Shown here piece after piece: positions 3,101-23,196 of a stretch of 64,000 nt of DNA. Every line of letters starts with the position of its first letter. The stretch's first letter is position 1. The notes below the pieces were generated by a model. It was not told the origin of the DNA. It saw nothing but the letters and a program-made list of their open reading frames with translations, and ran no database searches. The translations under genes and the position numbers were made by a program. Source of the stretch: Verrucomicrobiia bacterium (GTDB lineage: Bacteria; Verrucomicrobiota; Verrucomicrobiia; Verrucomicrobiales; Akkermansiaceae); contig JAUIGV010000020.1 in assembly GCA_030432565.1 (NCBI GenBank), positions 1-64,000 of the forward strand. The letters are read 5' to 3'.

Positions 3101-4239
3101 TCCTCGACCGCAGCGGCCGCTCGTCTATTTTTCGCACCGAATCACAGACCTTCTATTACGATGCCGCCCGCCCCACCGGCCTGATTCGCTTTCCCGCCGA
3201 AGGTGACCAACTCGGCGGATCCACCTACGGTTCGGTGGTCGTAACCGATGCCAGTGTGACCCGTGTGCAATATCTTATTCTCGATTCCAATCCCGGGAAC
3301 GACCAAGGTTGGACGAATGCGAGCGAGGTGCGGGTTCCCAGCCAGCTTGGCACCACCGGATTCACCCGCGAATGGCGCTTTGACTACGACGGCATCCCGT
3401 CGACCGGGACGGCGGAGATTCGAGTTCGACTCAAGGAGGTTTCCTCGTCCGATAATAACGCGCTCGACGACCTGACCGGTCACTACACCACCATCGTGCG
3501 AAATGTTCAAACGGGCTCGCCGGTAAACTTTCGCTTTGGCTTTCCCGGGACTGATGGCGACCTTGTCAATGAGGGCTACATCGCCAAAGTTCTCTTTGAT
3601 AAATCATTCGGCAACGGGTTCACTGACGCGGATCTCCTGAAGCAATTTCTCGTCCTCATCGACGATGTCGAACTTCCTTCCACCGCTCTTGCAATTGTCC
3701 GCAGCGAAACTCCGGGGGACGACGCGTTGGCAGTGACCCTTCCCAATCTCTACCAGGGCGATCAGGATACACTCCACGAAATCCGCGTCATCAACCAGCA
3801 AGGCGACATGACTTTGACAACCATCAGAAAAGTCCGAGCCGAGGTTACCTCGCTGCCGGATACCGATGGCGATGGCATGCCGGATATTTGGGAACTGCAG
3901 CACAAGCTGGAGGCGGGAAATGCCACCGGAGACCACGGCGCTGCGGGAGACATCGATCACGATGGCATCTCAAACCTGCTGGAATTCCTGGCCAAGAAAA
4001 ATCCCCTTCTCTCATCGACGCCAATCTTGAGAGCCGGGAGTGATGGCCAAAATGCGCAGCTTACCTTTGATGCCTACCCCGACCGCCGCTACCGCATCTG
4101 GCGCTCCAATGACCTCGAGACGATGACACCCGACCCCGGGTATTTCACCGTTGATGCGGAGAGCTTGAACCACCTGATCACCGAGCCACAAAGTGGCGGA
4201 CGCCAATTTTATGCACTCGAAATCGCGATGCCCGAATGA
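196..4239 (+). CDS. Secreted GH13 alpha-amylase family protein with C-terminal Asp-rich module
   Basis: A 1347-residue exported glycosidase, probably acting on alpha-glucans. All four GH13 regions are visible: region I (VYFDNVMAHN, about 116-125), region II (GFRLDAVKH, nucleophile Asp337), region III (LLFGEHLGE, acid/base Glu401) and region IV (LSHDNNS, Asp463). A calcium-loop-like DLDGDGQHDVNE stretch lies in the insert before region II, suggesting a metal-stabilised B domain. The long C-terminal part ends with two Asp-rich repeats (about 1222-1266; DTDGDGMPD and DIDHDGISNLLEF) and a short domain with RYRIWRSNDLE, like the ends of the LamG and CotH proteins in this window. ATG 196 is preferred to the in-frame ATG at 169 because it gives a clean signal peptide ending ...FAHA. 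The substrate is not readable from sequence. Confidence 0.9.
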   Translation: MRNSTSRLRHLHALAAVLFTWAPFAHAEETILQYFGTSWEGIEKRIPEVAEAGYSSLWLPPPFKGASGTFSVGFDTLDRFDLGNIDQSGTIPTRYGTKENLLSLIRTAHRFGIKVYFDNVMAHNGGPLGTTEPGNLFPEVPGFVPEDFHLVRTQGGGWRKASNDVNYQDEWQVLHRNPFAWDIAHESPNTSFDPDGDVENSDYDKWIGIRHPNNPEWYLDRDLPIARDFEGNDLYTFAHKEAFEDSGYGAENTGANNGRFDFDDLDGDGQHDVNEPSEPFSDTGIDGTNPNRRTATWGFGDGIYNMGDPVPEDVNSMLLRALRWFVDEAHPDGFRLDAVKHVPDYFFGEQNAATRDRSGAGYTGQAQVQFNLTRGHTDWGNHRDSVFTNTLSRDDLLLFGEHLGEPPGFGGYLAAGMRIANDTFLNTVGGFNGIGGNLTGYDQPNHGTFGTTTQNAAYPLSHDNNSMSGLDRPAAFQYLLTREGLPIVYTDGYNEEGPPSYFPKPAQIPFLGQYGQSWVNGPVAVRRDFVRGTQISKWSDRDFAAWEMRDKRENEGMSDADGTVLLVLMARNYTGGQARDLTTTFPAGARLRNYSNHGGSFHVTVDNQGRLRNDSGHAPVVPPGGIFAFSWDNPRIPRVWQGSETRPIQIFQSGSPAPMMEHVREDGRDGDRGYDYTAWIPRITDGTNLRFEARADGSTANILMKLDGGVDLNSQAGIESNDLAGRDNPPPLDRFGGNPAQDLFTGYEQMFFIDRTAEKFAATDVARNIIGSQGAETWQIKIGNAPTRNNGRGPNTNLGAVTWVYHDPRASDDNGTPQYLLTPNNFVELRVKVGYDDEPDAAWVYYTTDGSSFPEGSLGEGRGNTRVAPLTFYQNGNRDGDRIPQWWRAGLPSLPKGTVLRYKIGFHSEDAGPRFPFSADDIEIKRRMETKFEIDNFDATQVSFFPHNDHGEMVTGLEEGFHILRTKVFLDRSGRSSIFRTESQTFYYDAARPTGLIRFPAEGDQLGGSTYGSVVVTDASVTRVQYLILDSNPGNDQGWTNASEVRVPSQLGTTGFTREWRFDYDGIPSTGTAEIRVRLKEVSSSDNNALDDLTGHYTTIVRNVQTGSPVNFRFGFPGTDGDLVNEGYIAKVLFDKSFGNGFTDADLLKQFLVLIDDVELPSTALAIVRSETPGDDALAVTLPNLYQGDQDTLHEIRVINQQGDMTLTTIRKVRAEVTSLPDTDGDGMPDIWELQHKLEAGNATGDHGAAGDIDHDGISNLLEFLAKKNPLLSSTPILRAGSDGQNAQLTFDAYPDRRYRIWRSNDLETMTPDPGYFTVDAESLNHLITEPQSGGRQFYALEIAMPE

Positions 4240-9745: not shown

Positions 9746-10402
9746 GTGATCAAGGTCAGCAATCTCGATGTCAATTTTGAGACTCCCGGCGAAATCGTGG
9801 AAGTCCTCAAAGGGCTGGATTTTTCCGTCGAAAAAGGTGCGGCGGCCGCCGTGGTCGGGCCTTCGGGAAGTGGCAAAACCACCCTGCTCAATGTTCTGGG
9901 GGCCCTTCTCCCTCCCACCAAGGGCTCGGTCGAGATCGGCGGACAAGATATTGCCAGGTTTAACGAGAAGGAAGCCGCCCGCTTTCGGAATCAGGAACTA
10001 GGCTTTGTTTTCCAGCAACACCACCTCCTTCCCCAGCTCACCGTCATGGAAAATGTTCTCACGCCACGGCTTGCCGGCGGATGGAAGGAAAGCGAAGACG
10101 AAACCCGAAAACGAGCGGCCGAACTCCTGGAACGGGTCGGCTTGAGCCACCGTATGAACCACCGCCCGGGCGAACTCTCCGGCGGCGAAAAACAGCGTAC
10201 CGCCGTAGCCAGAGCCTTAATCAACCAACCCCGCGTGGTCCTTGCCGACGAACCAACCGGAGCGCTCGACGGAGAAACCGGCAGCAAAGTTGCCGACCTT
10301 CTCCTGGAAATCCAAAAGGAAGACGGCGTCACTTTGGTCGTCGTCACTCACGATCTTGATCTCGCAAAGCGGGTCGGCGGGGTCTTCGATCTTGGGAAGT
10401 GA
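9746..10402 (+). CDS. ABC transporter ATPase, LolD/MacB-like
   Basis: A 218-residue nucleotide-binding subunit with Walker A GPSGSGKT (38-45), Q-loop GFVFQQHHLLPQLT, signature LSGGEKQR (144-151), Walker B VVLADEP (164-170) and a late His in VVVTHDLDLA. The FVFQ..HLLP..T.MENV pattern is typical of the LolD/FtsE/MacB group, which works with FtsX-type permeases in lipoprotein release or efflux. No permease is adjacent, so its partner must be elsewhere. GTG 9746 begins directly before MIKVSNLDVNF, the expected N terminus. Confidence 0.9.
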   Translation: MIKVSNLDVNFETPGEIVEVLKGLDFSVEKGAAAAVVGPSGSGKTTLLNVLGALLPPTKGSVEIGGQDIARFNEKEAARFRNQELGFVFQQHHLLPQLTVMENVLTPRLAGGWKESEDETRKRAAELLERVGLSHRMNHRPGELSGGEKQRTAVARALINQPRVVLADEPTGALDGETGSKVADLLLEIQKEDGVTLVVVTHDLDLAKRVGGVFDLGK

Positions 10403-10447
10403 GTCCCATTGTCGCCTTTACTGGCTCAACCGGCCATCGACGGCCTC

Positions 10448-11560
10448 TCAGGCGGGGCCGAAGTGGATGCCGAGGGCTTGGCTGAATTGCATCAGCTTCT
10501 TTTTTTCCCTCGGATCAATGAGAACGAGGGAGATGCCTTTTTTACCGGCGCGGGCGGTGCGTCCGCTGCGGTGGGTGTAGTAGTCGATTTGCTCGGGAAG
10601 TTGATGATGAACGACGAAGGCCAGGTCTTCGACATCGATTCCGCGAGCGGCGACGTCGGTGGCGACCAGGAACTGGGTGCGCTCTTTTTTGAAGGCGCGC
10701 ATGACCTTATCACGTTCGAGCTGGGTGAGGTCGCCCTGCAAGACGCCGACAGAGTGGCCGCGGTTGGCGAGTTTTTTACCAAGAATGTCAGCTCCATCGC
10801 GGGTGCGGGTAAAGATGAGGCCGCGCAGAGAACCCTGTCGGTGAAGGAATTCATCGATGAAGTCGGTCTTGTCATCCTTGACGCAGACGGCGAAACGATG
10901 GTCGATGTTGCGGTTGACGACGTTCCGGGTGTCAATCTTGACCGTTTTGGGATCGGGCGACATGCAGAATTTGATGAGTTCATCGAGTGCCCGGGGGAAG
11001 GTGGCGGAGAAAAGCCAGGTGGCTCTGCGATTCACGCTGATTTCAATCGCGGAGCGGATCTGGTCTTTGAAACCCATGGAGAGCATTTCGTCGGCTTCAT
11101 CAAGAATGAGATATTGGACATGATCGAGGGAGAGCGCCTTGCGTTTGAGAAGGTCGTAAAGTCTTCCGGGGGTTGCCACGAGGATGTGGGTGGGGCGCTG
11201 GAGGCGGGAGACCTGAACATCGATCTTATCCCCGCCGGCTGCGACTTCGAGGAAGATCCGCTGGTCGGCATACTTGGTGAATTTGAAGAGAGCTTTATGG
11301 ATTTGTTTGGCGAGTTCGCGGGTGGGAGCGAGAATGAGGCCCTGAATCTCCTTCTTCCCGGGATCGATCTTGCTGAGCAGGGGGAGGCCAAAAGCGGCGG
11401 TCTTCCCGGTGCCGGTCTGGGCCTGCGCCACGAAGTCATGCCCGCGCTCGAGAAGGTAGGGGATTGATTGGGACTGCACCGGCGTGGGTTTTCGAATGCC
11501 GAGTTCTTCGAGGCCTTTGATGAAGTCGGCGGAGATGCCGAGGGATTTGAAATCGCTCAC
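10448..11560 (-). CDS. DEAD-box RNA helicase, RhlE-type
   Basis: ATP-dependent RNA helicase of about 370 residues. Visible motifs: Q motif in FKSLGIS...KPTPVQSQSIP, motif I AQTGTGKT (about 47-54), DEAD in LILDEADEML (about 150), SAT in LFSATFP, and HRSGRTARAG for motif VI. It lacks the long basic tail found in many RhlE/DeaD proteins. I chose GTG 11560, giving the usual short start SDFKSLGIS; the reading frame stays open to 11725, but that extension runs into the oppositely oriented esterase gene at 11655 and shows no helicase homology. Likely roles are ribosome assembly or RNA decay. Confidence 0.92.
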   Translation of the reverse strand: MSDFKSLGISADFIKGLEELGIRKPTPVQSQSIPYLLERGHDFVAQAQTGTGKTAAFGLPLLSKIDPGKKEIQGLILAPTRELAKQIHKALFKFTKYADQRIFLEVAAGGDKIDVQVSRLQRPTHILVATPGRLYDLLKRKALSLDHVQYLILDEADEMLSMGFKDQIRSAIEISVNRRATWLFSATFPRALDELIKFCMSPDPKTVKIDTRNVVNRNIDHRFAVCVKDDKTDFIDEFLHRQGSLRGLIFTRTRDGADILGKKLANRGHSVGVLQGDLTQLERDKVMRAFKKERTQFLVATDVAARGIDVEDLAFVVHHQLPEQIDYYTHRSGRTARAGKKGISLVLIDPREKKKLMQFSQALGIHFGPA

Positions 11561-11654
11561 AAGACAAGGGTGTAGTCGCTGGAAGGGGGAAAGCCAAGCA
11601 TGGGAGCGGGAAGATCTTGAAAAAGGAGCGGGGGAGCGGGCGTAGGGTTGGGCC

Positions 11655-12668
11655 ATGCGGGTTCTCCTCACTTTTAGTCTATTGGTCGCGGCCCTTTCCG
11701 CGAAAAACACGGTGAAGGTCTTCATTTTAGCCGGTCAATCGAATATGGAGGGGAAGGCGCAGAATAAGTTGCTGGAATACCAGGCGACTGCTCCAAATAC
11801 CAAGAAGCACTTCGCACACCTGCGCGAAGACGGAAAGTGGATCGAACGGGACGATGTCATGATCAAGTATCTCAACCGCCACGGCAGGCTTACGATCGGA
11901 TACGGATCACGTGATCGCACCGGGGTGGAGCTGCAACTTGGACACACGCTGGGAGATCACTACGAGGAGCCGGTTCTTTTGATCAAGACGGCTTGGGGCG
12001 GTCATTCGCTTTACCAAAAGTTCCGCCCGCCATCGGCCGGATTGCCATCGGCCGAAAAACTCGCCGGGGAACTGGAAAAGGCCCGCGAGCGGACCAGGAA
12101 AAATAATGAGAAGCGAAAGAAGAACGACCCGCTGCCCACGATGGAGGACATCAAGGCAGGTTACGGGGTTTCCTGGCGCGAGATGCTCAAGGAAGTACGA
12201 GAAACACTGGAGAATTACGAAACACTCTTTCCATCACTGAAGGGAGCCACTCCGGAGATCGCAGGTTTCGTATGGTTTCAAGGCTGGAACGATCAGTATA
12301 ATGGAGCGGAAACCGAGTATGCTTCAAACATGACGCACTTCATCAAAGATGTGCGAAAGGAATTCGAATCGCCGGAAATGCCTTTTGTAATTGGAGTGAT
12401 GGGACAGAATGGTTCAAAGGAAGCCAAGGGCGCGATGAAGGTGATTCAAGACGCACAGATGGCGATGGAGAAGTTACCCAAGGTCAAAGCGGTGCGAACG
12501 GATGTCCTCATCGACAAAGCGGCCGAAGCCCTTTACCCGACCTGGAGAGAGAACATTCCCGAGTGGGAGAAGGTTGGTTCGGATCACGGCTATCACTACC
12601 TGGGCAGCGCGATTTGGTTTAACCGGATAGGGAAGGGTTTTGCCGAAGCTCTGCTGGAATTGGAGTAG
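11655..12668 (+). CDS. Secreted SASA-family carbohydrate esterase
   Basis: A 337-residue exported protein of the sialate O-acetylesterase-like (SASA/CE6) group. After a short signal peptide (about 1-16) comes block I FILAGQSNMEG with probable nucleophile Ser29. A conserved WFQGWND box follows, and DHGYHYLGSA near the C terminus supplies the likely Asp/His pair. It would deacetylate decorated polysaccharides. The gene is monocistronic, divergent from the helicase gene, and convergent with the GspG-like gene. Confidence 0.85.
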   Translation: MRVLLTFSLLVAALSAKNTVKVFILAGQSNMEGKAQNKLLEYQATAPNTKKHFAHLREDGKWIERDDVMIKYLNRHGRLTIGYGSRDRTGVELQLGHTLGDHYEEPVLLIKTAWGGHSLYQKFRPPSAGLPSAEKLAGELEKARERTRKNNEKRKKNDPLPTMEDIKAGYGVSWREMLKEVRETLENYETLFPSLKGATPEIAGFVWFQGWNDQYNGAETEYASNMTHFIKDVRKEFESPEMPFVIGVMGQNGSKEAKGAMKVIQDAQMAMEKLPKVKAVRTDVLIDKAAEALYPTWRENIPEWEKVGSDHGYHYLGSAIWFNRIGKGFAEALLELE

Positions 12669-12725
12669 CCGAAAACAGTCACTATCGGTAGGTCGGGGTG
12701 ATTGTTCGAGAGCTGGAGCACCCGG

Positions 12726-13154
12726 CTACCTGGCTTCTTGTTGACCTGAGAGGTCGTCTTCAGTTCCAAATTTTTTGTCAGGACCGGCTGAGATGAGTAC
12801 TGGTTTCTCAAGAACGCCGGTTCCAGAGTATTGATAGCGATAAAGAGTGCCCCATGGATCAAGGAAGGCATCAGCGTTGTTGACAGCCTGCACCCAGTCT
12901 TTTGGCAAAGGTTGACTGACGGGCCGCTGCAAAAGGGCTTGAAGTCCTTGCTCCTGGCTTGGATATTGACCCCCGATGTTTTTATATTGTTCCAGTGCTG
13001 ACTGAAGGGAATCGAGATCAGTTTTAACACTTTGGAAATTGCCCCCAGCACCGCAGGTCGTGGTGCCTAAACTGTAAATGTAGGCTCCGATCGGCAAGCC
13101 GGCCAAACCTGCTACAAGCGGAAGGGAGATTAGAAACGTGTTGAAGCGACTCAC
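12726..13154 (-). CDS. GspG-like major pseudopilin-domain protein, atypical N terminus
   Basis: A 142-residue protein with the type II secretion GspG C-terminal fold: LDSLQSALEQYKNIGGQYPS, then QGLQALL, DPWGTLYRY, and a calcium-site-like end SAGPDKKFGTEDDLS. The N terminus is a plain hydrophobic segment (about 5-27) and has no prepilin-peptidase site of the G-F-T-L-x-E type, so it is probably not a processed pilin. A decayed relative lies directly upstream (13208-13452). No other secretion genes are adjacent. It may be a stand-alone membrane-anchored member of the domain family. Confidence 0.75.
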   Translation of the reverse strand: MSRFNTFLISLPLVAGLAGLPIGAYIYSLGTTTCGAGGNFQSVKTDLDSLQSALEQYKNIGGQYPSQEQGLQALLQRPVSQPLPKDWVQAVNNADAFLDPWGTLYRYQYSGTGVLEKPVLISAGPDKKFGTEDDLSGQQEAR

Positions 13155-13207
13155 ACTTCAATAATGCCTCTGACGAACCCACTTGTTTCAAGAATGGTAA
13201 CTTCGCT

Positions 13208-13452
13208 TTAGGGCGTACTCCACGGGTCTTTCGAAACCGCTTTGTCGATTGCTTGCACCCGGTCACGGGCCCGGGGGAATGTTGTGGCCCTTTTATCAAG
13301 GACATTAAGCCTTGAGCTTCAGAGGGATAGATTCCGCCAATGACGCGATATTGATCAATCAACTTACTGAGTGACTTGATACTGCTTCCGGCGAGTCTCG
13401 CGGCCTCTTTGTCAGCCTTGTTGAGAGGAGCTAGCTTGGCTCCGAACTCTCC
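13208..13452 (-). pseudogene. Decayed GspG-domain gene fragment
   Basis: Read on the minus strand, this stretch has SLSKLIDQYRVIGGIYPS followed by EAQGLMS, closely matching the neighbouring intact gene. The match then continues in another frame as LDKRATTFPRARDRVQAIDK and AVSKDPWSTP before a TAA at 13208-13210. Loss of one base near 13298-13302 explains the switch. The hydrophobic N terminus is missing: the open frame begins right after a stop that abuts the end of the PQQ-repeat gene. Frameshift, nonsense codon and missing start together mark a dead paralogue. Confidence 0.8.
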
Positions 13453-14679
13453 CTAGTGGGTGGTTGTCAAATCGAGGCAGACCACTTCACCTTGATTGGT
13501 CCGGGCGAAGAGTTTGCCTTCTCCTATCGCAAGGGGTGCCCAGCAGAGTTTCTTGGAAATCTCCTCGAAGAACTGATGGCGTCCGGATTCGGTGAAGCCC
13601 TTTTCGCCGGCTTTACCGAAGACCACCATGCCGGTCTCGGTGAGGACCACGGTGGTTTCGCCAATCTTCGCGGTTGAGCCACGGGTGCCGGGGAGGGAAT
13701 GTTTCCAGAGGATATCACCGCTTTTGAAGTCCATACGGTAAAGTTCGGTGTTATAGCGCTTGTCGCCAAAGCAGCCGATCAGATCATCGCCCTCGACGAA
13801 GCAATTTTGAAAGATCATGGGAAGATCCCGGTTGCGATGGACGATTTCCGGTTTGGGCTTGGAAACATCGATAACTGCGTAGCCCATGTTGTATCCGGAA
13901 GAAATATGGACGAGATCGCCGAGGACCTGAGGATTTGAGGCATTGACATCGTAAGGGGTGCGCCACTCGTATTCGTAAAGGACCTTGCCCTTGGCTGATA
14001 GATCGTATCCCACCACAGAGCGGCCGTGAAAGACCACCGCAGCATCCTTGCCTTTGTGCTGGTAAAGAACAGGAGCGGCGTAGCCGGGGCGTGCTCCGTT
14101 GGAAGAACTCCAGACTGTTTTGCCGGTTTTCTTGTTCAAGGCGACCATCGCCCCTTTTTTCGAACAGGGGAGACAGAGGAGCACATCACCATAGACAACG
14201 GGCGACGACGAATACCCCCAAGTGGGCATGTTACCCGAGAGGTCGTCCTTGAATTTAACGATCCACTTTTCGTCGCCGGTCGCAGCATCGTAGCAGGAGA
14301 GGCGGCCGGACTTGGAGAGATTGTAAACGAGACCTTCATCAATGATGGGGGTGGCTCCGGGTCCGCCGTCATAAAATTTAGGGGCAAGCTTCTCGGAATA
14401 AGTCTTTTTCCAAAGGACGTCGCCACTTTTGGCATCGAAGCACCAAAGGGTATCGCGATCTTCATCATTACCCACGGTGTAAGCTCTTCCATCGCCAATA
14501 GTGAAGCTTGAGCAGCCTCGGCCTACCTTTGCCTTCCAGAGGACCTTGGGACCGTTCTTCTGGACAAGGGCAGGGATTTCGCCCTTGGCGGTGCCATTGC
14601 CATTGGGCCCCAAATAGGATGACCACGTGGATCCCCAGGTCATAAGGGTCAGACCTAAAAACAAGATGAAAATTTTCAT
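13453..14679 (-). CDS. Secreted PQQ-like beta-propeller repeat protein
   Basis: A 408-residue exported protein with repeated propeller-blade motifs of the BamB/PQQ_2 type: LWCFDAKSGDVLWKKTY, LSCYDAATGDEKWIVKF, MVALNKKTGKTVWSS, LYRMDFKSGDILWKHSL and a final VVCLDL. The first in-frame ATG (14718) is not followed by a signal peptide, while ATG 14679 (MKIFILFLGLTLMTWG) is, so I start there. Verrucomicrobia and Planctomycetes carry many such proteins; enzymatic use of PQQ is not implied. No BamB partner genes are adjacent. Confidence 0.85.
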   Translation of the reverse strand: MKIFILFLGLTLMTWGSTWSSYLGPNGNGTAKGEIPALVQKNGPKVLWKAKVGRGCSSFTIGDGRAYTVGNDEDRDTLWCFDAKSGDVLWKKTYSEKLAPKFYDGGPGATPIIDEGLVYNLSKSGRLSCYDAATGDEKWIVKFKDDLSGNMPTWGYSSSPVVYGDVLLCLPCSKKGAMVALNKKTGKTVWSSSNGARPGYAAPVLYQHKGKDAAVVFHGRSVVGYDLSAKGKVLYEYEWRTPYDVNASNPQVLGDLVHISSGYNMGYAVIDVSKPKPEIVHRNRDLPMIFQNCFVEGDDLIGCFGDKRYNTELYRMDFKSGDILWKHSLPGTRGSTAKIGETTVVLTETGMVVFGKAGEKGFTESGRHQFFEEISKKLCWAPLAIGEGKLFARTNQGEVVCLDLTTTH

Positions 14680-14983
14680 TCCTGAGTTATAACTGAGAAA
14701 AGGGAAAATGCCAAACATTGGCTTTCGGGATCACTTGTTTTTCCCAGTCTTCAGGGAAGTGAATAGATCAATTTTAATTTCGTCTTCGTCTTCTTAGTGG
14801 GAATAACCCGTTCAAATCTCTGTTCCACCGCTTTACCATGCGGGTTCCACGGATGGAATAACTCGTGAGCACAAGCGTGAGTAAGGTCCAGCGAATGGAA
14901 GAATTTTGGGAATTTCCTATTTTGATCCCTGCTGCCAAGATCTTGTTCACAGCCTTGTTGGGCCTATTTTACAAAACCTGATG
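14680..14983. other. Intergenic region between divergent PQQ-repeat gene and ribD
   Basis: About 300 nt that must hold promoters for both flanking genes. It is somewhat AT-rich in the middle (14760-14800). The FMN riboswitch core expected before some ribD genes was looked for and not found. A TTG-initiated extension of ribD to 14906 is possible but adds a segment with no deaminase homology. Confidence 0.5.
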
Positions 14984-16039
14984 ATGAAGATTTCCGAAGA
15001 TGAAAAGTGGATTCGAGTGGCCTTGGAAGAAGGGCGGAAGGGAATCGGACTTACTGCGCCCAATCCACCTGTGGGAGCGGTACTGGTCAAGGATGGTGCC
15101 GAGCTAGCCCGGGGTTGGCATCGTAGGGCGGGGACTCCGCACGCCGAACGGGATGCCTTGTCCAAAATTTCAGAGCATGAGGCCAAAGGCGCAACGGCTT
15201 ATGTGACGCTGGAACCATGCAGCACGCAGGGGCGCACGGGAGCTTGCACGGAAGCCTTGATTGCAGCGGGCGTGGCAAAAGTGGTTTATGGTGCGTGCGA
15301 TCCCAATCCTTCTCATGTCGGAGGGGCGGATGGGATTCTTGAAGCAGCGGGCATCGAGGTGGTCCAGCGAGTCCTCGAGGACGAATGTCTGGAATTGGTG
15401 CGGGGATTCGCGATGGTGCAGTCGGAAGGGCGACCTTGGGTGATTGCCAAAACCGCGATGTCTCTGGATGGCCGGATTACGCGCCCGCCCGGGGAAGGAC
15501 AGTGGCTGAGTGGTCCTTCGGCCCGCCAAGAAGTCCAACAGTTGCGCGTGGAGGCGGATGCCATTCTGACCTCGGGTGAGACGGTGAGGCGGGATGACCC
15601 GGCGCTGACTCTGAGGGGACCGGGAATTCCCCCCGGTAAAATGCAACCGTGGCGGGTGGTGATGACCCGACAGGAATTGGTCCGGGAAAGGTATCAGCTG
15701 TTTGTGGATGAGTGGAAGAACCGGACTTTGGTTTTTAAGAATCAATCAAAGTACGATATTTTACGTACTTTAGCGAATGAACACGAAGTGAACACGGTTT
15801 TGCTCGAGGCAGGCGGCTCCTTGCTGGGTTCTTTTCTCGATGAAGGATTGATTGATGAATGGGTCATCTACTTGGCGCCGATGGTGACGGGAGGTCCAAC
15901 GGCAGCGGTGGGAGGGCAGGGGAGTGGGACCCTCGAAGAGCGCATGAACCTGAAAAATGTCAGAATCCACGAAGTAGGTCGCGACCTCTGTGCGCGTGGC
16001 TTGGTTAATCGGGACTATGTAAAACCCCTTGAACGATAG
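14984..16039 (+). CDS. ribD: Bifunctional riboflavin biosynthesis deaminase/reductase RibD
   Basis: Catalyses the second and third steps of riboflavin synthesis. The N-terminal zinc deaminase has GLTAPNPPVGAVLV, the His-Ala-Glu box TPHAERDAL, and EPCSTQGRTGACTEAL with the two Cys ligands. The C-terminal reductase starts at VIAKTAMSLDGRI and contains GPSARQEVQQLR and the late EAGGSLLGSFL. Length is 351 residues, normal for RibD. Starts at 14981 and 14984 (ATGATG) are equivalent. The other rib genes are not nearby. Its product supports FAD supply, relevant to the ApbE gene elsewhere in the window. Confidence 0.95.
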   Translation: MKISEDEKWIRVALEEGRKGIGLTAPNPPVGAVLVKDGAELARGWHRRAGTPHAERDALSKISEHEAKGATAYVTLEPCSTQGRTGACTEALIAAGVAKVVYGACDPNPSHVGGADGILEAAGIEVVQRVLEDECLELVRGFAMVQSEGRPWVIAKTAMSLDGRITRPPGEGQWLSGPSARQEVQQLRVEADAILTSGETVRRDDPALTLRGPGIPPGKMQPWRVVMTRQELVRERYQLFVDEWKNRTLVFKNQSKYDILRTLANEHEVNTVLLEAGGSLLGSFLDEGLIDEWVIYLAPMVTGGPTAAVGGQGSGTLEERMNLKNVRIHEVGRDLCARGLVNRDYVKPLER

Positions 16040-16043
16040 GTGA

Positions 16044-17054
16044 TTAACCAAACATCTGGGTCCAGTGACTACCGTAGCGACCAAGCCCAATTCGTTTGTG
16101 GGATCCCTTGAACATGTTCTTATGGTGGCCAGGTGAGTAGAACCAACCTTTGTTGGCCGAGGCGGGTGAGGTCGACCCCATGTAGATGTTTTCTCCGCTT
16201 GCCTTGGTACCTTCGTTGGCAGCCCGGTCCCAGGGGGTTTTCTTGCCAGCGATGGGGGACTCGTGTGCAAAGAAATTATTTTTGGCCATATCTTCGGAAT
16301 GACCCCGGCTGGCATCGCAAAGCTTTGAATCGATCAAAAGAGCATTGAGACCGAGTAGGAGACGCCATTCATTGACTTCGCGAATCCCTTTGCGCTCGTC
16401 TGCGGGAATGTTTTCTTTTTCGGCAATCTTGTCGTTTTCTTTGATGATACGAAGGCCATCGCGGGGGAGCCCCGCAAACGAGGAAATTGCCTCTTTTTCG
16501 GTGGAGAGAATGTTGGCTTCTGCTTTTTCTTCGTCATGGAGAACTGCGGTGTCGACGATGGCGTCGCGAAATTTTGCGAGGGTTAGGACGATCTTGCGCT
16601 GTTGGTCCAAGGCGGCCGGGGCGGTGGCGAAGATTTGCCCGGCATCCGGCATGATGAGCCTTTTCAATCCTTCGATCGCGGGCATGCTTTTCGTTTTGAG
16701 AAGAGGTTTCATAGCGTTCTCACCGAGGTGATAAACCATCATGAAATCCTTACGATGCTGGCGGATTTTTCGATTCGCCTCTGCCTTGGCCTCGCCTGTG
16801 AATTGGCTCTTTACGAAGTCATTGTGATCTTTGAGGTAGCGGTCCCGGAGTTGCGGCCACGTGTGATCGAACTCTTTAAGAAGCGGAACAAGTTCCTTGT
16901 TTTCCAGATTCTCCAAATCGGAAACGAGATCACCAAGTCCCTTATCAGTTTCAATGACAGCTTGAAGGCGAACGAAGATTTCGTTCGTGGTGAGCGTCGC
17001 CGCTTTGATTGGAATCAAAGTGAGCAGCAGTAAAAGAAGGAAGAGGGGTTTCAT
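16044..17054 (-). CDS. Secreted CAP (SCP/PR-1) domain protein
   Basis: A 336-residue exported protein. A signal peptide (MKPLFLLLLLLTLIPIKA) is followed by a ~200-residue helical, charged region of unknown fold and then a C-terminal CAP domain: VNEWRLLLGLNALLIDSKLC, ASRGHSEDMAKNNFFAHESP, GENIYMG, and W..SPGHHKNMF near the end. The conserved His/Glu cavity residues are present (RGHSEDM, GENI, GHHKNM). ATG 17054 is chosen because of the signal peptide; upstream codons to 17342 are low-complexity and overlap the terminator and the next gene. Bacterial CAP proteins mostly lack a defined role. Confidence 0.85.
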   Translation of the reverse strand: MKPLFLLLLLLTLIPIKAATLTTNEIFVRLQAVIETDKGLGDLVSDLENLENKELVPLLKEFDHTWPQLRDRYLKDHNDFVKSQFTGEAKAEANRKIRQHRKDFMMVYHLGENAMKPLLKTKSMPAIEGLKRLIMPDAGQIFATAPAALDQQRKIVLTLAKFRDAIVDTAVLHDEEKAEANILSTEKEAISSFAGLPRDGLRIIKENDKIAEKENIPADERKGIREVNEWRLLLGLNALLIDSKLCDASRGHSEDMAKNNFFAHESPIAGKKTPWDRAANEGTKASGENIYMGSTSPASANKGWFYSPGHHKNMFKGSHKRIGLGRYGSHWTQMFG

Positions 17055-17104
17055 GATGGTCTCGAAGGTGCGCGATGGTAACGTTGACAGGCTTGCTTGT
17101 CTTT

Positions 17105-17140
17105 GAAAAAAGAAGGCTCCCTTCTTGAGAAGAGAGCCTT
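17105..17140 (-). terminator. Rho-independent terminator after the small secreted-protein gene
   Basis: On the minus strand an AAGGCTC/GAGCCTT stem (17113-17119 with 17134-17140), extended inward by CTTC/GAAG, is followed by a T-rich tract (17105-17111). It ends transcription from the 17167-17499 gene and insulates the CAP gene. Confidence 0.85.
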
Positions 17141-17166
17141 GGGTCTTGAGTAAAACAGGAGCCACC

Positions 17167-17499
17167 TTAGCGGCAGCGTTGCTGTTGGTATCGTTGGCGC
17201 CAGCGGGGATTATGGGTGCGGATGTAGCGTTCGCGTTCAAGACGTCGCTGAAATTCGCGTTGAGCCGCGATGCGACGTTGGCGCTCGAGATAACGGCTGA
17301 GTTCATACCCGGTGAGGCGTTCGCTGTGGTAGTGGTTGCCATGGCGAACGCGTTTGGAGTAGATCGGGCTTCCGCACGGAAGGTATCCGCTGATGAAAAC
17401 GGTTGTTACGGGACCCTGGTTGCAGTGTCTCTGGGCTGCGGCAGGGAGGGCCAGTCCGCCAGTTAAAAGGGTGATTCCGAGGATCAATAGTTTTTTCAT
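17167..17499 (-). CDS. Small secreted hypothetical protein
   Basis: A 110-residue exported protein with signal peptide MKKLLILGITLLTGGLALPAAA. The mature part begins with a short Cys-containing stretch (HCNQGPVTTVFISGYLPCGS) and continues as a very basic Arg/Gln/Tyr-rich helix (about residues 60-108). The composition resembles small periplasmic or outer-membrane-associated proteins, but I recognise no family. A strong terminator follows the gene. Confidence 0.75.
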   Translation of the reverse strand: MKKLLILGITLLTGGLALPAAAQRHCNQGPVTTVFISGYLPCGSPIYSKRVRHGNHYHSERLTGYELSRYLERQRRIAAQREFQRRLERERYIRTHNPRWRQRYQQQRCR

Positions 17500-17681
17500 T
17501 TTCTTGGTTTGGTTGGGTTAACTGGTGCTGTCGGGTGTGACGCAAGGGAGGCGGACGGAATTCAAAGAAAATCTGAACAAGGCTTGTTGGCGGCTTCAAT
17601 CGCGCTTCCAAAATTAGTATCCCTTTATAATGAATGAAATCGATTTGGTGTGGTCTAATCCATCAGTAAGAAAAATTGATT

Positions 17682-18059
17682 ATGAGCGAAAAATTTAACC
17701 AAAATCCCGAAAACTCCTGTGAGGGAAGTGAGAGCAAGCGTCAGTTCGACTCCTTTGGCGAAGCGTTCAAAGCAGGGACTACCGATGGTGCCGCCAAGGC
17801 TCGTGAGAAGGCCCCCGGGCTCAAGACCGGGGTCGCCGATGCCGTTCACGATATGGCCTATGGTCTTGCCTACGGATCGGTCTTTGCCGCTGCTTTTATT
17901 AACGAATTGATTCCGGCGAATATCCGCGATGGTTTGTCCCGTGGAGCTGAAGACGGAAAAGCCGCTGGTAAAAAAGCCTGCGATACCGTTCAGGATGCCA
18001 TAGGCCCTGATGACAAACCAATTGAAGGAAGTGATATCACTAATCCTTCTTTTTCTTAA
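17682..18059 (+). CDS. Hypothetical small Ala/Gly-rich protein
   Basis: A 125-residue protein with no recognised domain. Residues 1-25 are polar and Asn/Glu-rich; the centre is Ala/Gly-rich with a weakly hydrophobic helix (AVHDMAYGLAYGSVFAAAFI), followed by a charged GLSRGAEDGKAAGKKA stretch. The repeated G-x-x-x-G/A spacing suggests an amphipathic helix at a membrane. A TTG six nt upstream could also be used, but the ATG is preferred. A terminator (18130-18173) follows, so it is a single-gene unit. Confidence 0.7.
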   Translation: MSEKFNQNPENSCEGSESKRQFDSFGEAFKAGTTDGAAKAREKAPGLKTGVADAVHDMAYGLAYGSVFAAAFINELIPANIRDGLSRGAEDGKAAGKKACDTVQDAIGPDDKPIEGSDITNPSFS

Positions 18060-18129
18060 ATTTTTAGACAGAACCATATTCTAACAGCGTTTATGTCTGT
18101 GTAACAAAGATTGTTGTTGCGTGTGTGCT

Positions 18130-18173
18130 CAACAGCGGTTCGCCTTTCGAGGGGAGCCGCTGTTGTTATTTTA
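18130..18173 (+). terminator. Rho-independent terminator
   Basis: CAACAGCGGTTC (18130-18141) pairs perfectly with GAGCCGCTGTTG (18154-18165), followed by TTATTTT. It closes the small Ala/Gly-rich gene and separates it from mnmG. Confidence 0.85.
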
Positions 18174-18340
18174 GGGTAGTGTAAATCGTTGATTGACAAT
18201 GATTTAGCAATAATCTGAGGTCGTAGTGACTGTTCTAAATCCGAGGGAAGATTCTCTCAATCAGGACCTTATATCAATTTGGAGGCCCGCTTCGCCTTGC
18301 TTGTCTTTGTGGGGAATGTTGCTAGCTTCCGTCCTCGCCC

Positions 18341-20218
18341 ATGTATCGCTATCCCAAAGAATACGACGTCCTCGTCATCGGGGCCGGTCACGCCGGAGTC
18401 GAGGCTGCTCTCGCTGCCGCCCGTCTCGGAGTTTCTGTTGCCATGTTGACCCAGAATCTCGACACGATCGGACAGATGAGCTGTAACCCGGCAATCGGAG
18501 GATTGGCCAAGGGACACATGGTTCGCGAGATCGATGCTCTCGGAGGAATCATGGGAGAGAATACCGACGCGACCGCCATCCAGTGGCGTATGCTGAATGC
18601 AGGAAAAGGGCCATCTGTTCGTGCCCCGCGTGCGCAGTGCGATAAGAAGGCGTATCAGTTTCGAATCAAGCGAGCCATTGAAGGAGCCGAAGGTTTGGAT
18701 CTCCACCAAGGGAATGTGGCAACAATCCTGGTTGAGAATGATGAAGTGAAGGGGGTGCAAACGTCTCTCCAAATGGAACTTCGCGCCAAAACGGTGATTC
18801 TTTCGGCAGGAACCTTCATGCGGGGTCTCATGCATGTGGGCTTGAAGAATGAGAAAGGGGGCCGGATGGGGGATGCCACTTCGACTGTTTCCGAGTCCTT
18901 GAAGGAGCTTGGGTTTGAGATCGACCGTTTCAAGACTGGAACTCCCTGTCGGTTGAATGGCCGGAGTCTCGATCTAAACAAATGTGAGAAACAGGAGGGG
19001 GATACCCCGCCTTCCTTGTTTAGCTATCATCCCGAATTGATTGGGAAGGGGAAGAACGACATCTTCACTTTGAATCATTGGGCAGACCCGAAGTTCCACG
19101 TGGAACAAATCCCATGTTGGATTACCTGGACAACGTCCAAAACCCACGATGTCATCCGCGACAACCTTGACCAATCGCCAATGTATTCGGGTAAAATTGA
19201 AGGTATCGGTCCGCGTTATTGTCCCTCGATCGAGGATAAGGTGGTTCGTTTTGCCGAAAAGGAGCGCCACCAGGTCTTTTTGGAGCCAGAAGGGCGTCAC
19301 ACCCTGGAATATTACGTGAATGGAGTTTCGACTTCGCTTCCCTACGAGGTGCAACTTGATTTCCTTCGTGCGATCCCGGGGCTTGAGAAATGCGAGATCA
19401 TCCGCCCTGGCTACGCGGTGGAGTATGATTACTGCCCGCCAACCCAGCTAAAACCGACTCTGGAGACCAAGAGGGTATCGGGGCTTTTTTTTGCGGGTCA
19501 GATCAACGGGACTTCCGGATACGAGGAAGCGGCTGGTCAGGGTCTTCTCGCTGGCGCTAATGCTGCTCTCAAGGTGAAAGGGGAAGGGGACCTCGTGCTG
19601 GGACGCGATGAAGCCTATCTCGGAGTGATGGTTGATGACCTCGTCACCAAGGGTTGCACCGAGCCTTACCGGATGTTTACCAGTCGTGCCGAGTACCGCC
19701 TCTTGCTTCGTCAGGATAACGCTGATGAGCGACTCAGCCCGATTGCTTCGAGGCTGGGCCTCTTGAGAGGCGAGCATGCCGATCGTTTCGCACAAAAACT
19801 CTCCTGTCTTACACAAGCCCGTGCTTTCATCCGGAAAACAAGTCATGAACGGATCAAACTAGATCATTGGTTTCGCCAGGGTGGTCATGGCTGGCAGGAT
19901 CTGCCGTCTGAGATCCGCGAAAAGTTCCACGTGGAACTTTGGCCCATTCTTGAAGCTGATTTTAAGTATGAGGGCCATATCACCCGCCAACAACAGGAGG
20001 TGGATCGCTTTAAAAAGCAGGAGTCCGCGCTTATTCCGGTGGATATGGATTATCAGGTGCTCTCTGGCCTGAAAGCCGAGGCCCGTCAGCGTTTCAGTGA
20101 CATCCGGCCCCGCACGCTCGGGCAAGCTGCCCGGATTTCAGGAATTACCCCGGCAGACGTTACCCTCCTGATGATTGCTCTGGAGAAACGGAAGAAGGCT
20201 GCCGAGCTTGAGGCATAA
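18341..20218 (+). CDS. mnmG: tRNA uridine-5-carboxymethylaminomethyl modification enzyme MnmG (GidA)
   Basis: FAD-dependent partner of MnmE that modifies U34 of several tRNAs. The dinucleotide-binding motif [19 protein letters not shown] is at 12-30, followed by the signature [20 protein letters not shown]. Other family blocks: [33 protein letters not shown] and [20 protein letters not shown]. Length 625 is normal. It stands alone; mnmE and rsmG are not in the window. Confidence 0.97.
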
Positions 20219-20260
20219 CAAGCTTGGTCTTTCCTCCTGTTTGCTGTCAGAGTTCCCGGA

Positions 20261-21796
20261 GTGATCACTTTGAGGAATCTCTTTATCGTTCTGTTTCCTG
20301 TTTTCATCTCCGGAGCATTGGCGGAGCGTCCCAATATTCTGGTCATCCTGACGGATGATCACCGCTATGATGCCTTGGGCTTTTTGGGACATCCATTTCT
20401 GGAGACTCCCAATATGGACCGCCTCGCGGCCGAAGGGGTTCACTTTAAGAATGCCTACGTGACCACTTCGTTGTGTTCACCCAGCCGGGCTTCGATTCTC
20501 ACCGGGCTCTACGCTCACAACCATCGGGTCGTTGACAACTACAACCCGGTCAGCAAATCACTGACCTTCTTTCCCGAGATCCTTCAGAAGGCTGGTTACC
20601 AAACAGCTTTCATTGGCAAGTGGCACATGGGCGACAGTGAAGAAAAGCAGCGCGGCTTTGATTACTGGCTTAGCTTCAAGGGGCAGGGGGTTTATGTGCC
20701 GGATCCCGCCATGCTCAAGGCAAAGGGCCGCTTCGTCCCGCAAGCCACGAACTCAGGATTTAATATCAACGGGCAGAAGGTTGCCCAGAAGGGCTACATC
20801 ACCGATGAACTCACCGATTATGCCGAGGAGTGGCTTGCAGAAAAGGATGCGGAAAAGCCCTTTCTTCTCTACGTTTCCCATAAGGGGGTGCATGCCGATT
20901 TCCTGCCGCCTGACCGCCATGCCTTTAAGTACGATAAAGTACTTATTTCGACTCCGCCCACTCCTGTAGCCAATCCCGACCTCTTCACCGATCCGCCGAT
21001 GTGGGTCCGGAACCAAAGCAACAGCAGGCATGGAGTGGAGTTCGCCTACTACACCGGTGTCGATATGAAGAAGTATTACCGGCGTTACTGTGAAGCTCTT
21101 CTGGCAGTCGACGATAGTGTGGGCCGTCTTTTGAAGAATCTCGAGAAGAGCGGTGAACTGGAAAATACCGTTGTGCTCTACCTCGGTGACAATGGTTTCA
21201 TTTTCGGGGAGCATGGTCTCATCGACAAGCGCTGCGCGTATGATGAATCGGTCCGCATCCCCATGCTCATGCGCTATCCCAAATCGCTGAAGCCGGGAAC
21301 GACTGTCGAGAAGATCGTCGCCAATATTGACGTTGCGCCCACTCTACTCGAGGTCGCCGGTTTGAAGCCGCTGGATCAAATGGACGGGAAAAGTTTCTGG
21401 CCGCTTGCGAAAGGGGAGGGGAGTCCCAAATGGCGCCAATATCTTCTCTACGAATATTACTGGGAACGAAATTATCCACAAACCCCAACCAATCATGCCG
21501 TGATCGGAGAAGACTACAAATACATCCGCTACCACGGTGTCTGGGATCAGGATGAACTCTACCACACCAAGTCTGATCCCAGGGAGCGAAAGAACCTCTT
21601 CAACGATCCCGCCCAGGAATCGCGCATTGAAGAAATGAACAAAGCCCTCTTTGGTCTCCTCGCGGATTCGAGCGGAGAGAATATGCCGCTCCTTCCGGAT
21701 CGTGGGACGAAGTATTTTCACCGCAAAACGGATGGTTCCCGAGGGGCGGCTTTTCCGCCCAGCTTCCATCGGAACGCGGGTAGGAGTGGAAAGTGA
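20261..21796 (+). CDS. Secreted sulfatase (S1 family)
   Basis: A 511-residue exported sulfatase. Signal peptide about 1-20, then the metal-binding NILVILTDDH and the modification motif SLCSPSRASILTG, where Cys72 would become formylglycine. KWHMGD and GDNGFIFGEHGL supply later active-site residues. The C terminus (YEYYWERNYPQTP..DYKYIRYHGVWDQDELYH) is typical of N-acetylglucosamine-6-sulfatase/heparan-type members, but substrate cannot be assigned. It starts at a GTG 42 nt after mnmG, so it may be read through from it. Maturation requires a formylglycine-generating enzyme, not seen here. Confidence 0.92.
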   Translation: MITLRNLFIVLFPVFISGALAERPNILVILTDDHRYDALGFLGHPFLETPNMDRLAAEGVHFKNAYVTTSLCSPSRASILTGLYAHNHRVVDNYNPVSKSLTFFPEILQKAGYQTAFIGKWHMGDSEEKQRGFDYWLSFKGQGVYVPDPAMLKAKGRFVPQATNSGFNINGQKVAQKGYITDELTDYAEEWLAEKDAEKPFLLYVSHKGVHADFLPPDRHAFKYDKVLISTPPTPVANPDLFTDPPMWVRNQSNSRHGVEFAYYTGVDMKKYYRRYCEALLAVDDSVGRLLKNLEKSGELENTVVLYLGDNGFIFGEHGLIDKRCAYDESVRIPMLMRYPKSLKPGTTVEKIVANIDVAPTLLEVAGLKPLDQMDGKSFWPLAKGEGSPKWRQYLLYEYYWERNYPQTPTNHAVIGEDYKYIRYHGVWDQDELYHTKSDPRERKNLFNDPAQESRIEEMNKALFGLLADSSGENMPLLPDRGTKYFHRKTDGSRGAAFPPSFHRNAGRSGK

Positions 21797-21800
21797 CGTG

Positions 21801-22202
21801 TTAGGCTTGGTAAAAGGGAATTTGGACCACGGAAGCAAGCTTCTGAAAGTCCAGATCGATCGTGAGAATTTCCATTTCTCTGGCAATGGCGATGGCCGCG
21901 ATGAGACAGGTGGTGTTGGTGACGAGAATCCCCGAGTCGTGACACTTGTTGCAGAGGCGGGCGGCCTCGACATAGTCGCTGGAATTGACAGGTTCGTCAG
22001 GAAAAGCGTTGAGAGCGCTGCGGAGACGGTCGAATTGCACGGTGTAGCGGACTCCGGATAGGATTTCCTGCCGAACAGGTCCGATCATGACGGCTTTGCC
22101 CGTTTCGATTAGTTCAGTCAGGGCTTCGGTCTCCGGCGCGTCTACGGGGTTCCTACGCCGCAGGGCCAGCGACCAGACCGAAGTGTCTACGATCACTCCC
22201 AT
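21801..22202 (-). CDS. vapC: VapC-type PIN-domain toxin with a substituted catalytic residue
   Basis: A 133-residue PIN ribonuclease partner of the upstream antitoxin. Expected acidic residues Asp6 (VIVDTSVWSLALR), Glu46 (GPVRQEILSG) and the late Asp116/Asp118 (LTIDLDFQKLA) are present. At the third site, where the family normally has D in a (S/T)DCLIAA block, the sequence reads NTTCLIAAIAI: Thr98 stands in place of Asp. This may weaken or abolish nuclease activity. It overlaps the antitoxin gene by 10 nt and its end lies close to the oppositely oriented sulfatase gene. Confidence 0.88.
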   Translation of the reverse strand: MGVIVDTSVWSLALRRRNPVDAPETEALTELIETGKAVMIGPVRQEILSGVRYTVQFDRLRSALNAFPDEPVNSSDYVEAARLCNKCHDSGILVTNTTCLIAAIAIAREMEILTIDLDFQKLASVVQIPFYQA

Positions 22203-22399
22203 GACGATCTCCTTCCTGCGGTGTGGTCGTAGCTTTCGTCGATGTCGATCTTTCCAAAAAGCAGGGTGACCTCCTTTTGTTTGCGGCGATTGATGTATTC
22301 CTTCAAGGCAGCTTCCACTGCCGCTCTTTTGCTTCGGTGATTCCCGATTTTGACTGCTTCTTCAAGCAATTCTTGTGCGATATCAAGATTGGTTGCCAT
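22193..22399 (-). CDS. vapB: VapB-type antitoxin
   Basis: A 68-residue antitoxin of the type II VapB group. The N-terminal part (MATNLDIAQELLEEAVKIGN, then KRAAVEAALKEYINRRKQ) is the usual ribbon-helix-helix-like DNA-binding portion and the acidic C terminus (GKIDIDESYDHT) would wrap the toxin. It lies upstream of and overlaps vapC, the standard order. A palindrome 14 nt upstream of its start is the likely autoregulatory operator. Confidence 0.88.
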   Translation of the reverse strand: MATNLDIAQELLEEAVKIGNHRSKRAAVEAALKEYINRRKQKEVTLLFGKIDIDESYDHTAGRRSSWE

Positions 22400-22400
22400 G

Positions 22401-22434
22401 TGCGGTATACTCGCACAATTTTGTGCACAAAAAA
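22401..22434 (-). promoter_or_regulatory. Probable vapBC promoter/operator
   Basis: GCACAA-TT-TTGTGC (22413-22426) is a 14-nt inverted repeat just upstream of vapB. On the minus strand it is followed by GTATACC, a plausible -10 element only a few nt before the ATG. Binding of VapB-VapC to this palindrome would occlude the promoter. Such a close -10 box would give a leaderless or near-leaderless mRNA. Confidence 0.55.
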
Positions 22435-22473: not shown

Positions 22474-23196
22474 TTACCAGCTGTGGCTAAAGTAAATGAG
22501 CGGCTCGCCCTTTTTGGTCCCGATGACCTGGAACCAGTCCGTGTCGCTATTTTTGTCGAAGCCTTTGTAGACCACCGAGGTGTAGAACCAGCCGTCGACT
22601 TCAACGGTTTTGGTCAAACGGTGTCCGGCGAGGAGTTTTTTGGGGATCGTCGCGATTGCTTCGAGGTGGTCTTCCCTGTTTTTGATCGTGAGATCGATTT
22701 TCACCATTCCTCCCCGGAAGAGGTCCTCCGGTCTATCTGGAAAACGATCCCGGAGTTCCCCGCCCATCTGGCTGGTGCGCAGTTGAAAGATGGGATGAGC
22801 CTTCGCAGCTGCATTCTCCCGAGAGTTTTTAAGAGCGTATAGTAGCTTCTCAAGGTCTTCGTCGTAGTAAGGATAGACCGTGAAATTGCCGGTATTCGGC
22901 TGCACGACATCCTTGAGCCTTTCCGGGCACTGGACCAATTCCTCTGACGATACTGAATAATCAATCAGCACCTTTTTCCCATTCACGTAGCGAGGACCAA
23001 GTTCTGCTGCTGAGCCTGGCCATTTCCCGTCGTTTTCTTCAACGAATCTGATGAGATCTCGAATCGCTGCCGCTGTTCCATACTCGGCGGACACACGCGA
23101 GGAGAATTGAATCACCGCCATGATTATCCAAATGATGATGGCGGATCCAATCAGAACAACAGTCTTAGCGAATCGGCACTTTGTTTTTTTTGTCAT
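22474..23196 (-). CDS. Hypothetical membrane-anchored protein
   Basis: A 240-residue protein with a basic N terminus, one hydrophobic helix (about 13-30, VVLIGSAIIIWIIMAVIQF) and an extracytoplasmic domain. The segment after the helix (AAAIRDLIRFVEENDGKWPGS then ELGPRYVNG) resembles the helix-then-WP pattern of pseudopilin-like proteins, but no pilin cleavage site is present. The C-terminal half is beta-rich (TVEVDGWFYTSVVYKGF). I recognise no family. It sits between VapBC and another unknown on the same strand. Confidence 0.7.
   Translation of the reverse strand: MTKKTKCRFAKTVVLIGSAIIIWIIMAVIQFSSRVSAEYGTAAAIRDLIRFVEENDGKWPGSAAELGPRYVNGKKVLIDYSVSSEELVQCPERLKDVVQPNTGNFTVYPYYDEDLEKLLYALKNSRENAAAKAHPIFQLRTSQMGGELRDRFPDRPEDLFRGGMVKIDLTIKNREDHLEAIATIPKKLLAGHRLTKTVEVDGWFYTSVVYKGFDKNSDTDWFQVIGTKKGEPLIYFSHSW

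Follow-up and report, generated by a model that had tools for sequence, protein, structure and literature searches.

It has long been asked why toxin-antitoxin pairs are retained on chromosomes. The question is raised here by a vapBC locus from a Verrucomicrobiia bacterium of the family Akkermansiaceae, the toxin of which carries threonine in place of the third catalytic aspartate of its PIN domain. What might such a pair be kept for? We analysed a stretch of 64,000 nucleotides, referred to as the window (positions 1-64,000 of contig JAUIGV010000020.1; assembly GCA_030432565.1, 5.93 Mb in 82 contigs), and compared the locus with those of its relatives. The features discussed are collected in Table 1.

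Table 1. Features of the vapBC locus and its surroundings (positions in the window)
Feature	Position	Strand	Basis
vapC-like gene, PIN protein of 133 aa, ATG start, T98 replacing the third catalytic Asp	21801..22202	-	ORF, profile matches, alignment
Codon 98 of vapC, ACC (Thr)	21909..21911	-	GAC/GAT in sister sequences L059/L060
vapB antitoxin gene, 68 aa, PF09957	22193..22399	-	directly upstream of vapC
Codon 60 of vapB, Thr	22220..22222	-	antitoxin alignment
Codon 63 of vapB, Arg	22211..22213	-	antitoxin alignment
Half-site TTGTGCGA just upstream of vapB, candidate operator	22411..22418	-	upstream comparison
Palindrome TTTTGTGCACAAAA upstream of vapB	22419..22432		upstream comparison
Sulfatase gene, convergent with the vapBC pair	20261..21796	+	profile match, neighbour comparison
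mnmG, beyond the sulfatase as seen from vapC	18341-20218		neighbour comparison

Threonine at residue 98 of VapC

In profile searches the vapC-like reading frame matched the PIN family PF01850 with 36.8 bits (cut-off 23.6) and the NCBIfam VapC family NF047959 with 86.6 bits (cut-off 80). The antitoxin gene, the last 10 bases of which lie within the 5' end of vapC, matched its own family with 56.4 bits against a cut-off of 23.4 and is intact, as the first-pass annotation had judged from the letters alone. That annotation had also reported that Thr98 replaces the aspartate of the third PIN motif while D6, E46, D116 and D118 are in place, and our alignments agree on each of these residues. Threonine 98 lies in the segment VTNTTCLIAAIAI, and the protein aligns without gaps to its nearest D-type relatives among the matches listed (L059, 62%, NTDSLI; L060, 59%, NTDCLI), the corresponding motif being NTTCLI in all six species of a T98 clade. 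The alignment with solved VapC structures that the first-pass annotation had proposed places T98 opposite the aspartate of NDCLIAA in VapC11 (6a7v), the closest solved VapC, and at least five of the six solved homologues matched have aspartate in this column. Three of the four acids of a VapC active site are thus present, residue 98 being threonine.

We rejected a sequencing or assembly error because each of six separate assemblies has T98, encoded by ACC in two species and by ACT in four; the change from Asp to Thr takes two base changes. A misalignment with another aspartate filling the site was likewise rejected, the alignment to L059 and L060 being ungapped.

Across 93 aligned rows among the matches listed, residue 98 is Thr in nine, Asp in 83 and Asn in one, residue 6 is Asp in 93, residue 46 is Glu in 92 and residue 116 is Asp in 91. 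Four repeated rows were dropped before the remaining counts were made (L056, L057 and L058, on the same contigs as L004, L007 and L008, and L061, on that of L009). In this de-duplicated set T98 occurs in all six clade species, and the 83 other relatives, which include near-copies, have Asp in 82 cases and Asn in one; as the scan for relatives supplied the best 80 of at least 551 confirmed loci, this count describes near relatives and not all VapCs. Among positions conserved in at least 85% of these other relatives, the six T98 proteins differ at three, R15, D98 and D118. Arginine 15 is Gln in four of the six (Arg in 83/83 others among the matches listed), and D118 is Glu in four of the six (Asp in 80/83). 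D6, E46, D116 and T114, the threonine before motif 4, are all retained; a working nuclease would also require them. We looked for a compensating acid and found D89 and E109 as the only candidates absent from most other relatives, and both are weak: among the matches listed, position 89 is acidic in 3/83 others, including L010, which has D98, and position 109 in 17/83.

Other departures from the catalytic set occur singly, namely E46 to Lys (L015), D116 to Asn (L014) and D116 to Glu (L127). A VapC of Calothrix sp. CSU_2_0 (L135, match 3001-3384) carries Asn98 (NTNFLICAVA), as in laboratory VapC mutants, and its antitoxin tail keeps YDYKQQR.

The predicted structure of the T98 protein (mean pLDDT 95.2) matches VapC15 (4chg) with a Z score of 19.4, VapC11 (6a7v) with 18.3 and the D98N mutant of Shigella VapC (5ecd) with 15.3. 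The model shows that the ordinary VapC fold is kept.

Ancestry of the locus and selection on its genes

In a maximum-likelihood tree of 89 rows among the matches listed, built from few columns, the six T98 VapCs form one clade (support 100/99) nested among D98 proteins; a single origin of D98T in the ancestor of the six species, followed by fixation, is what this tree shows. The six species belong to one Akkermansiaceae genus. The same sulfatase is convergent to vapBC in all six genomes, with mnmG beyond it in five; in the sixth (G017) the contig ends within reach of the sulfatase. In the five T98 genomes besides the present one the cognate vapB likewise adjoins vapC; in one of them (G020) vapB is cut by the contig end and is complete only on a second contig.

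The sulfatase also occurs in genus-mates that lack the pair. When all 27 genomes of the genus were searched with the sulfatase, 13 proved to hold its closest copies (82-100% identity); six of these carry intact vapBC, two carry remnants and five carry none in the flank examined. Both remnants lie in the 3' flank of the sulfatase. In G026 (L142), residues 1-22 of vapB are followed directly by residues 104-131 of vapC. The remnant in G004 (L143) is a broken vapC with the sequence NTCLDTGISTGNTDCL, in which GNTDCL puts Asp at position 98; it was detected by short, weak tblastn matches (E 0.001 and 0.004 against the 13 flanks), of which the second piece, residues 104-126, is collinear, and blastn at E 0.01 found nothing of it. 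The Asp of the sister sequences L059 and L060 and of the L143 remnant suggests that D98 is ancestral, that T98 became fixed in a single lineage and that other lineages lost the genes.

We rejected a mobile-element origin: a search of viral_contigs with alignment A1 gave 11 pattern matches of which none was confirmed as a relative, no phage record matched and no tRNA gene lies in the window. Plasmid records were limited to three from Nostoc, all below 60% identity. The vapBC locus looks vertically inherited.

Within the compared stretches the two T98 subclades share the sulfatase but no gene immediately beyond vapB. Upstream of vapB lies a 240-aa reading frame without a Pfam match (window 22474-23196, minus strand), of which only a 59-residue stretch was matched in G003 (L044), at 76%. 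Gene order in L045 and L046 relative to about 10400-22400 of the window suggests an inversion of ~12 kb between the subclades; genes found at 9.0-10.4 kb of the window sit about 2 kb from vapB in L045 and L046.

To describe selection we used simple Nei-Gojobori counts, with which VapC dS is saturated between the two T98 subclades (8/15 pairs). For VapC, seven of the 15 T98 pairs had usable dS and gave dN/dS of 0.029-0.090; over all 15 pairs dN/dS was 0.032-0.095 for VapB and 0.038-0.122 for the sulfatase, which was taken stop to stop, so that its values may be inflated by a few codons that are not translated; after trimming, two sulfatase pairs gave 0.103 and 0.034. VapC lay below the sulfatase in four of the seven usable pairs and above it in three. 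A count test of VapC against the neutral ratio gave p values of 9e-5 to 9e-26 over the 15 pairs, which are non-independent. D98-type VapC pairs from other organisms had dN/dS of 0.054-0.258 where dS was usable. Both genes of the pair are under purifying selection similar to that on the sulfatase, and the low dN/dS of VapC, like that of VapB and the sulfatase, indicates that the T98 toxin is not drifting.

Identity between the two T98 subclades is 77-81% for VapC, 85-86% for the sulfatase and 88-93% for VapB. We found no clear case for a relaxed toxin, as the ratio of VapC to VapB dN between the T98 subclades is about 1.7-3.1, at the upper end of the values for D98 pairs, which reach about 2.8 (leaving out L084/L105, with a VapB dN of 0).

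Antitoxin tail, candidate operator and readings of the pair

Antitoxins could be compared for 77 of the 83 other relatives, one script-chosen reading frame being used where several were possible; of the remaining six, L060 has a disrupted frame, L069 was not found, and L014, L088, L095 and L124 offered no candidate reading frame. Arginine 63 of VapB is present in 77/77 D98-type antitoxins among the matches listed and in 6/6 of the T98 type, and from its position it is likely the counterpart of VapB11 Arg62. Three residues before it, position 60 is Lys or Arg in 75/77 D98-type antitoxins among the matches listed and Thr or Ser in 6/6 of the T98 type. One might guess that this Lys/Arg contacts D98 of the toxin. 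Strict co-evolution of the antitoxin change with D98T is weakened, however, because the two exceptions, L062 and L063, also lack Lys/Arg and yet their toxins have D98. L060 (about 2820-3011) has an intact vapC beside a vapB frame of which the second half seems disrupted, which could be an assembly error.

Just upstream of vapB, all six T98 species, and several D98 relatives as well, have the half-site TTGTGCGA, and we regard it as a putative operator half-site. The palindrome TTTTGTGCACAAAA is perfect in the present species only, among the six T98 species.

That toxin and antitoxin genes are so well preserved despite the lost acid suggests that the pair serves some purpose different from RNA cleavage at full strength. 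We favour, with moderate confidence, the reading that T98 VapC is a catalytically dead or weak pseudo-toxin, kept as the partner of VapB in a DNA-binding complex; published mutants of the equivalent residue in NTHi VapC1 lend weight to this regulatory role. On this reading the third catalytic Asp was lost in an ancestor of the six species, from a chromosomal and vertically inherited pair. Judging by those mutants, the T98 protein most likely does not cleave RNA fast enough to be toxic; it would still fold, take the VapB tail into its acidic pocket and complete a VapBC complex seated on the vapB operator. A VapC that is non-toxic but forms a complex on the operator would turn the pair into a tamed toxin-antitoxin module, that is, a DNA-binding (perhaps RNA-binding) regulatory complex and not a growth-arrest device. 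More tentatively, the clade may have made VapBC into a dedicated non-toxic regulatory complex through the loss of Asp together with a re-tuned antitoxin tail, the complex being selected without toxicity. The first-pass annotation had thought of an immunity-only or regulatory remnant; with frames open in all six species and dN/dS well below 1 the element of decay is not supported, and the regulatory role survives as the reading favoured here.

Alternatively, as the first-pass annotation had also proposed, the site may work with three carboxylates. T98 VapC would then still be a metal-dependent ribonuclease, if perhaps a slower or more selective one, with the metal bound by D6, E46 and D116 (together with D/E118) and T98 providing a hydroxyl or water-mediated contact. 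The conservation of these other catalytic positions in all six species and a VapC dN/dS like that of the neighbouring sulfatase are consistent with such an enzyme, as is E120 replacing D117 in NTHi VapC1, which provides a precedent for a flexible fourth acid. We nevertheless consider it less likely, given that D99G and D99N at the third position of NTHi VapC1 are described as loss-of-function changes, that D98 is held in 82/83 other relatives among the matches listed (the last having Asn), and that there is no convincing substitute acid, D89 and E109 being weak candidates.

Much less probable is a decaying remnant, a pair on its way to being lost after inactivation of the toxin. The open vapC and vapB frames in all six species (for G020 vapB, on its second contig) argue against it, as do VapC dN/dS below 0.1 in the seven usable pairs of 15 and the p values of the count test on non-independent pairs, even though two genus-mates (G026, G004) hold fragments only and five further genomes with the closest sulfatase hold none, R15 and D118 have also changed in four of the six T98 proteins, and VapC has diverged more between the subclades than the sulfatase or VapB. 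We give still less weight to a changed enzyme, with the PIN pocket completed by an acid from a partner protein or catalysing another reaction. PIN-like folds do perform other jobs, our model matching the cyclodehydratase RohQ (Z 11.6-11.7), and SMG5 completes the PIN active site of SMG6 (PMC12923823). The sole other PF01850 match in the genome, however, lies on another contig, looks like a different type and gives no sign of partnership, no vapB-side neighbour is shared between the T98 subclades in the compared stretches, and the sulfatase also stands in pair-less genus-mates.

On the preferred reading of a non-catalytic regulatory complex, a toxin that lacks a catalytic residue and is still protected by selection would mean that the value of the complex is separable from the value of the poison. 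The T98 pairs, their D98 relatives and the broken copies in genus-mates form a ready set for asking whether a toxin-antitoxin pair can be kept for regulation alone, and the same set could show whether PIN nucleases work with Thr at residue 98.

Comparison with characterised VapBC and PIN systems

In the literature searched, which took in few subscription journals, we found no natural VapC in which the third Asp is replaced by Thr and the pair is under selection. It is already known that a PIN domain can complete the site of another (SMG5) and that VapC sites differ at the fourth acid (NTHi VapC1).

The comparison draws on PMC6265470, PMC13273310, PMC4229260, PMC6118392, PMC10215180 and PMC3302801. 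The T98 pair resembles VapBC11 and VapBC15 of M. tuberculosis in fold, in its 26% identity to VapC11, in its small antitoxin with a putative pocket Arg and in three of the four pocket acids. According to these sources, Arg62 of VapB11 holds D5, E44 and D116 of the toxin in the VapBC11 crystal; the acids kept here (D6, E46, D116) are the counterparts of those three, whereas the acid lost at residue 98 is not named in this contact. Unlike VapC11, the present protein has Thr as its third pocket acid position, and Arg94 of VapC11, described as needed for tRNA binding, has T95 opposite and no Arg counterpart. Arg14 of VapC11, which stands opposite R15 in T98 VapC numbering, is reported to bind the antitoxin backbone, and an R14E mutant remained active.

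Closest in the residue concerned are the mutants of VapC1 from NTHi (Haemophilus) and Shigella VapC, the latter (D98N, 5ecd) considered here by its PDB title alone. Of the NTHi VapC1 variants, D99G turned up as a loss-of-function mutant. D99N was constructed to abolish ribonuclease function; it still associates with VapB-1, and together the two bind the operator. These changes are laboratory ones, from D to N or G, whereas the T98 change arose naturally, replaces D by T and has become fixed in one clade. NTHi VapC1 also departs naturally from the four-acid PIN site (N117/E120), E120 replacing D117 as the fourth acid with activity kept; there the fourth acid has moved, whereas the T98 proteins lack the third and show no obvious substitute for it. 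The PIN domain of SMG5 is regarded as degenerate. Like T98 VapC on our reading, it is kept for function, but SMG5 works by completing the site of its paralogue SMG6.
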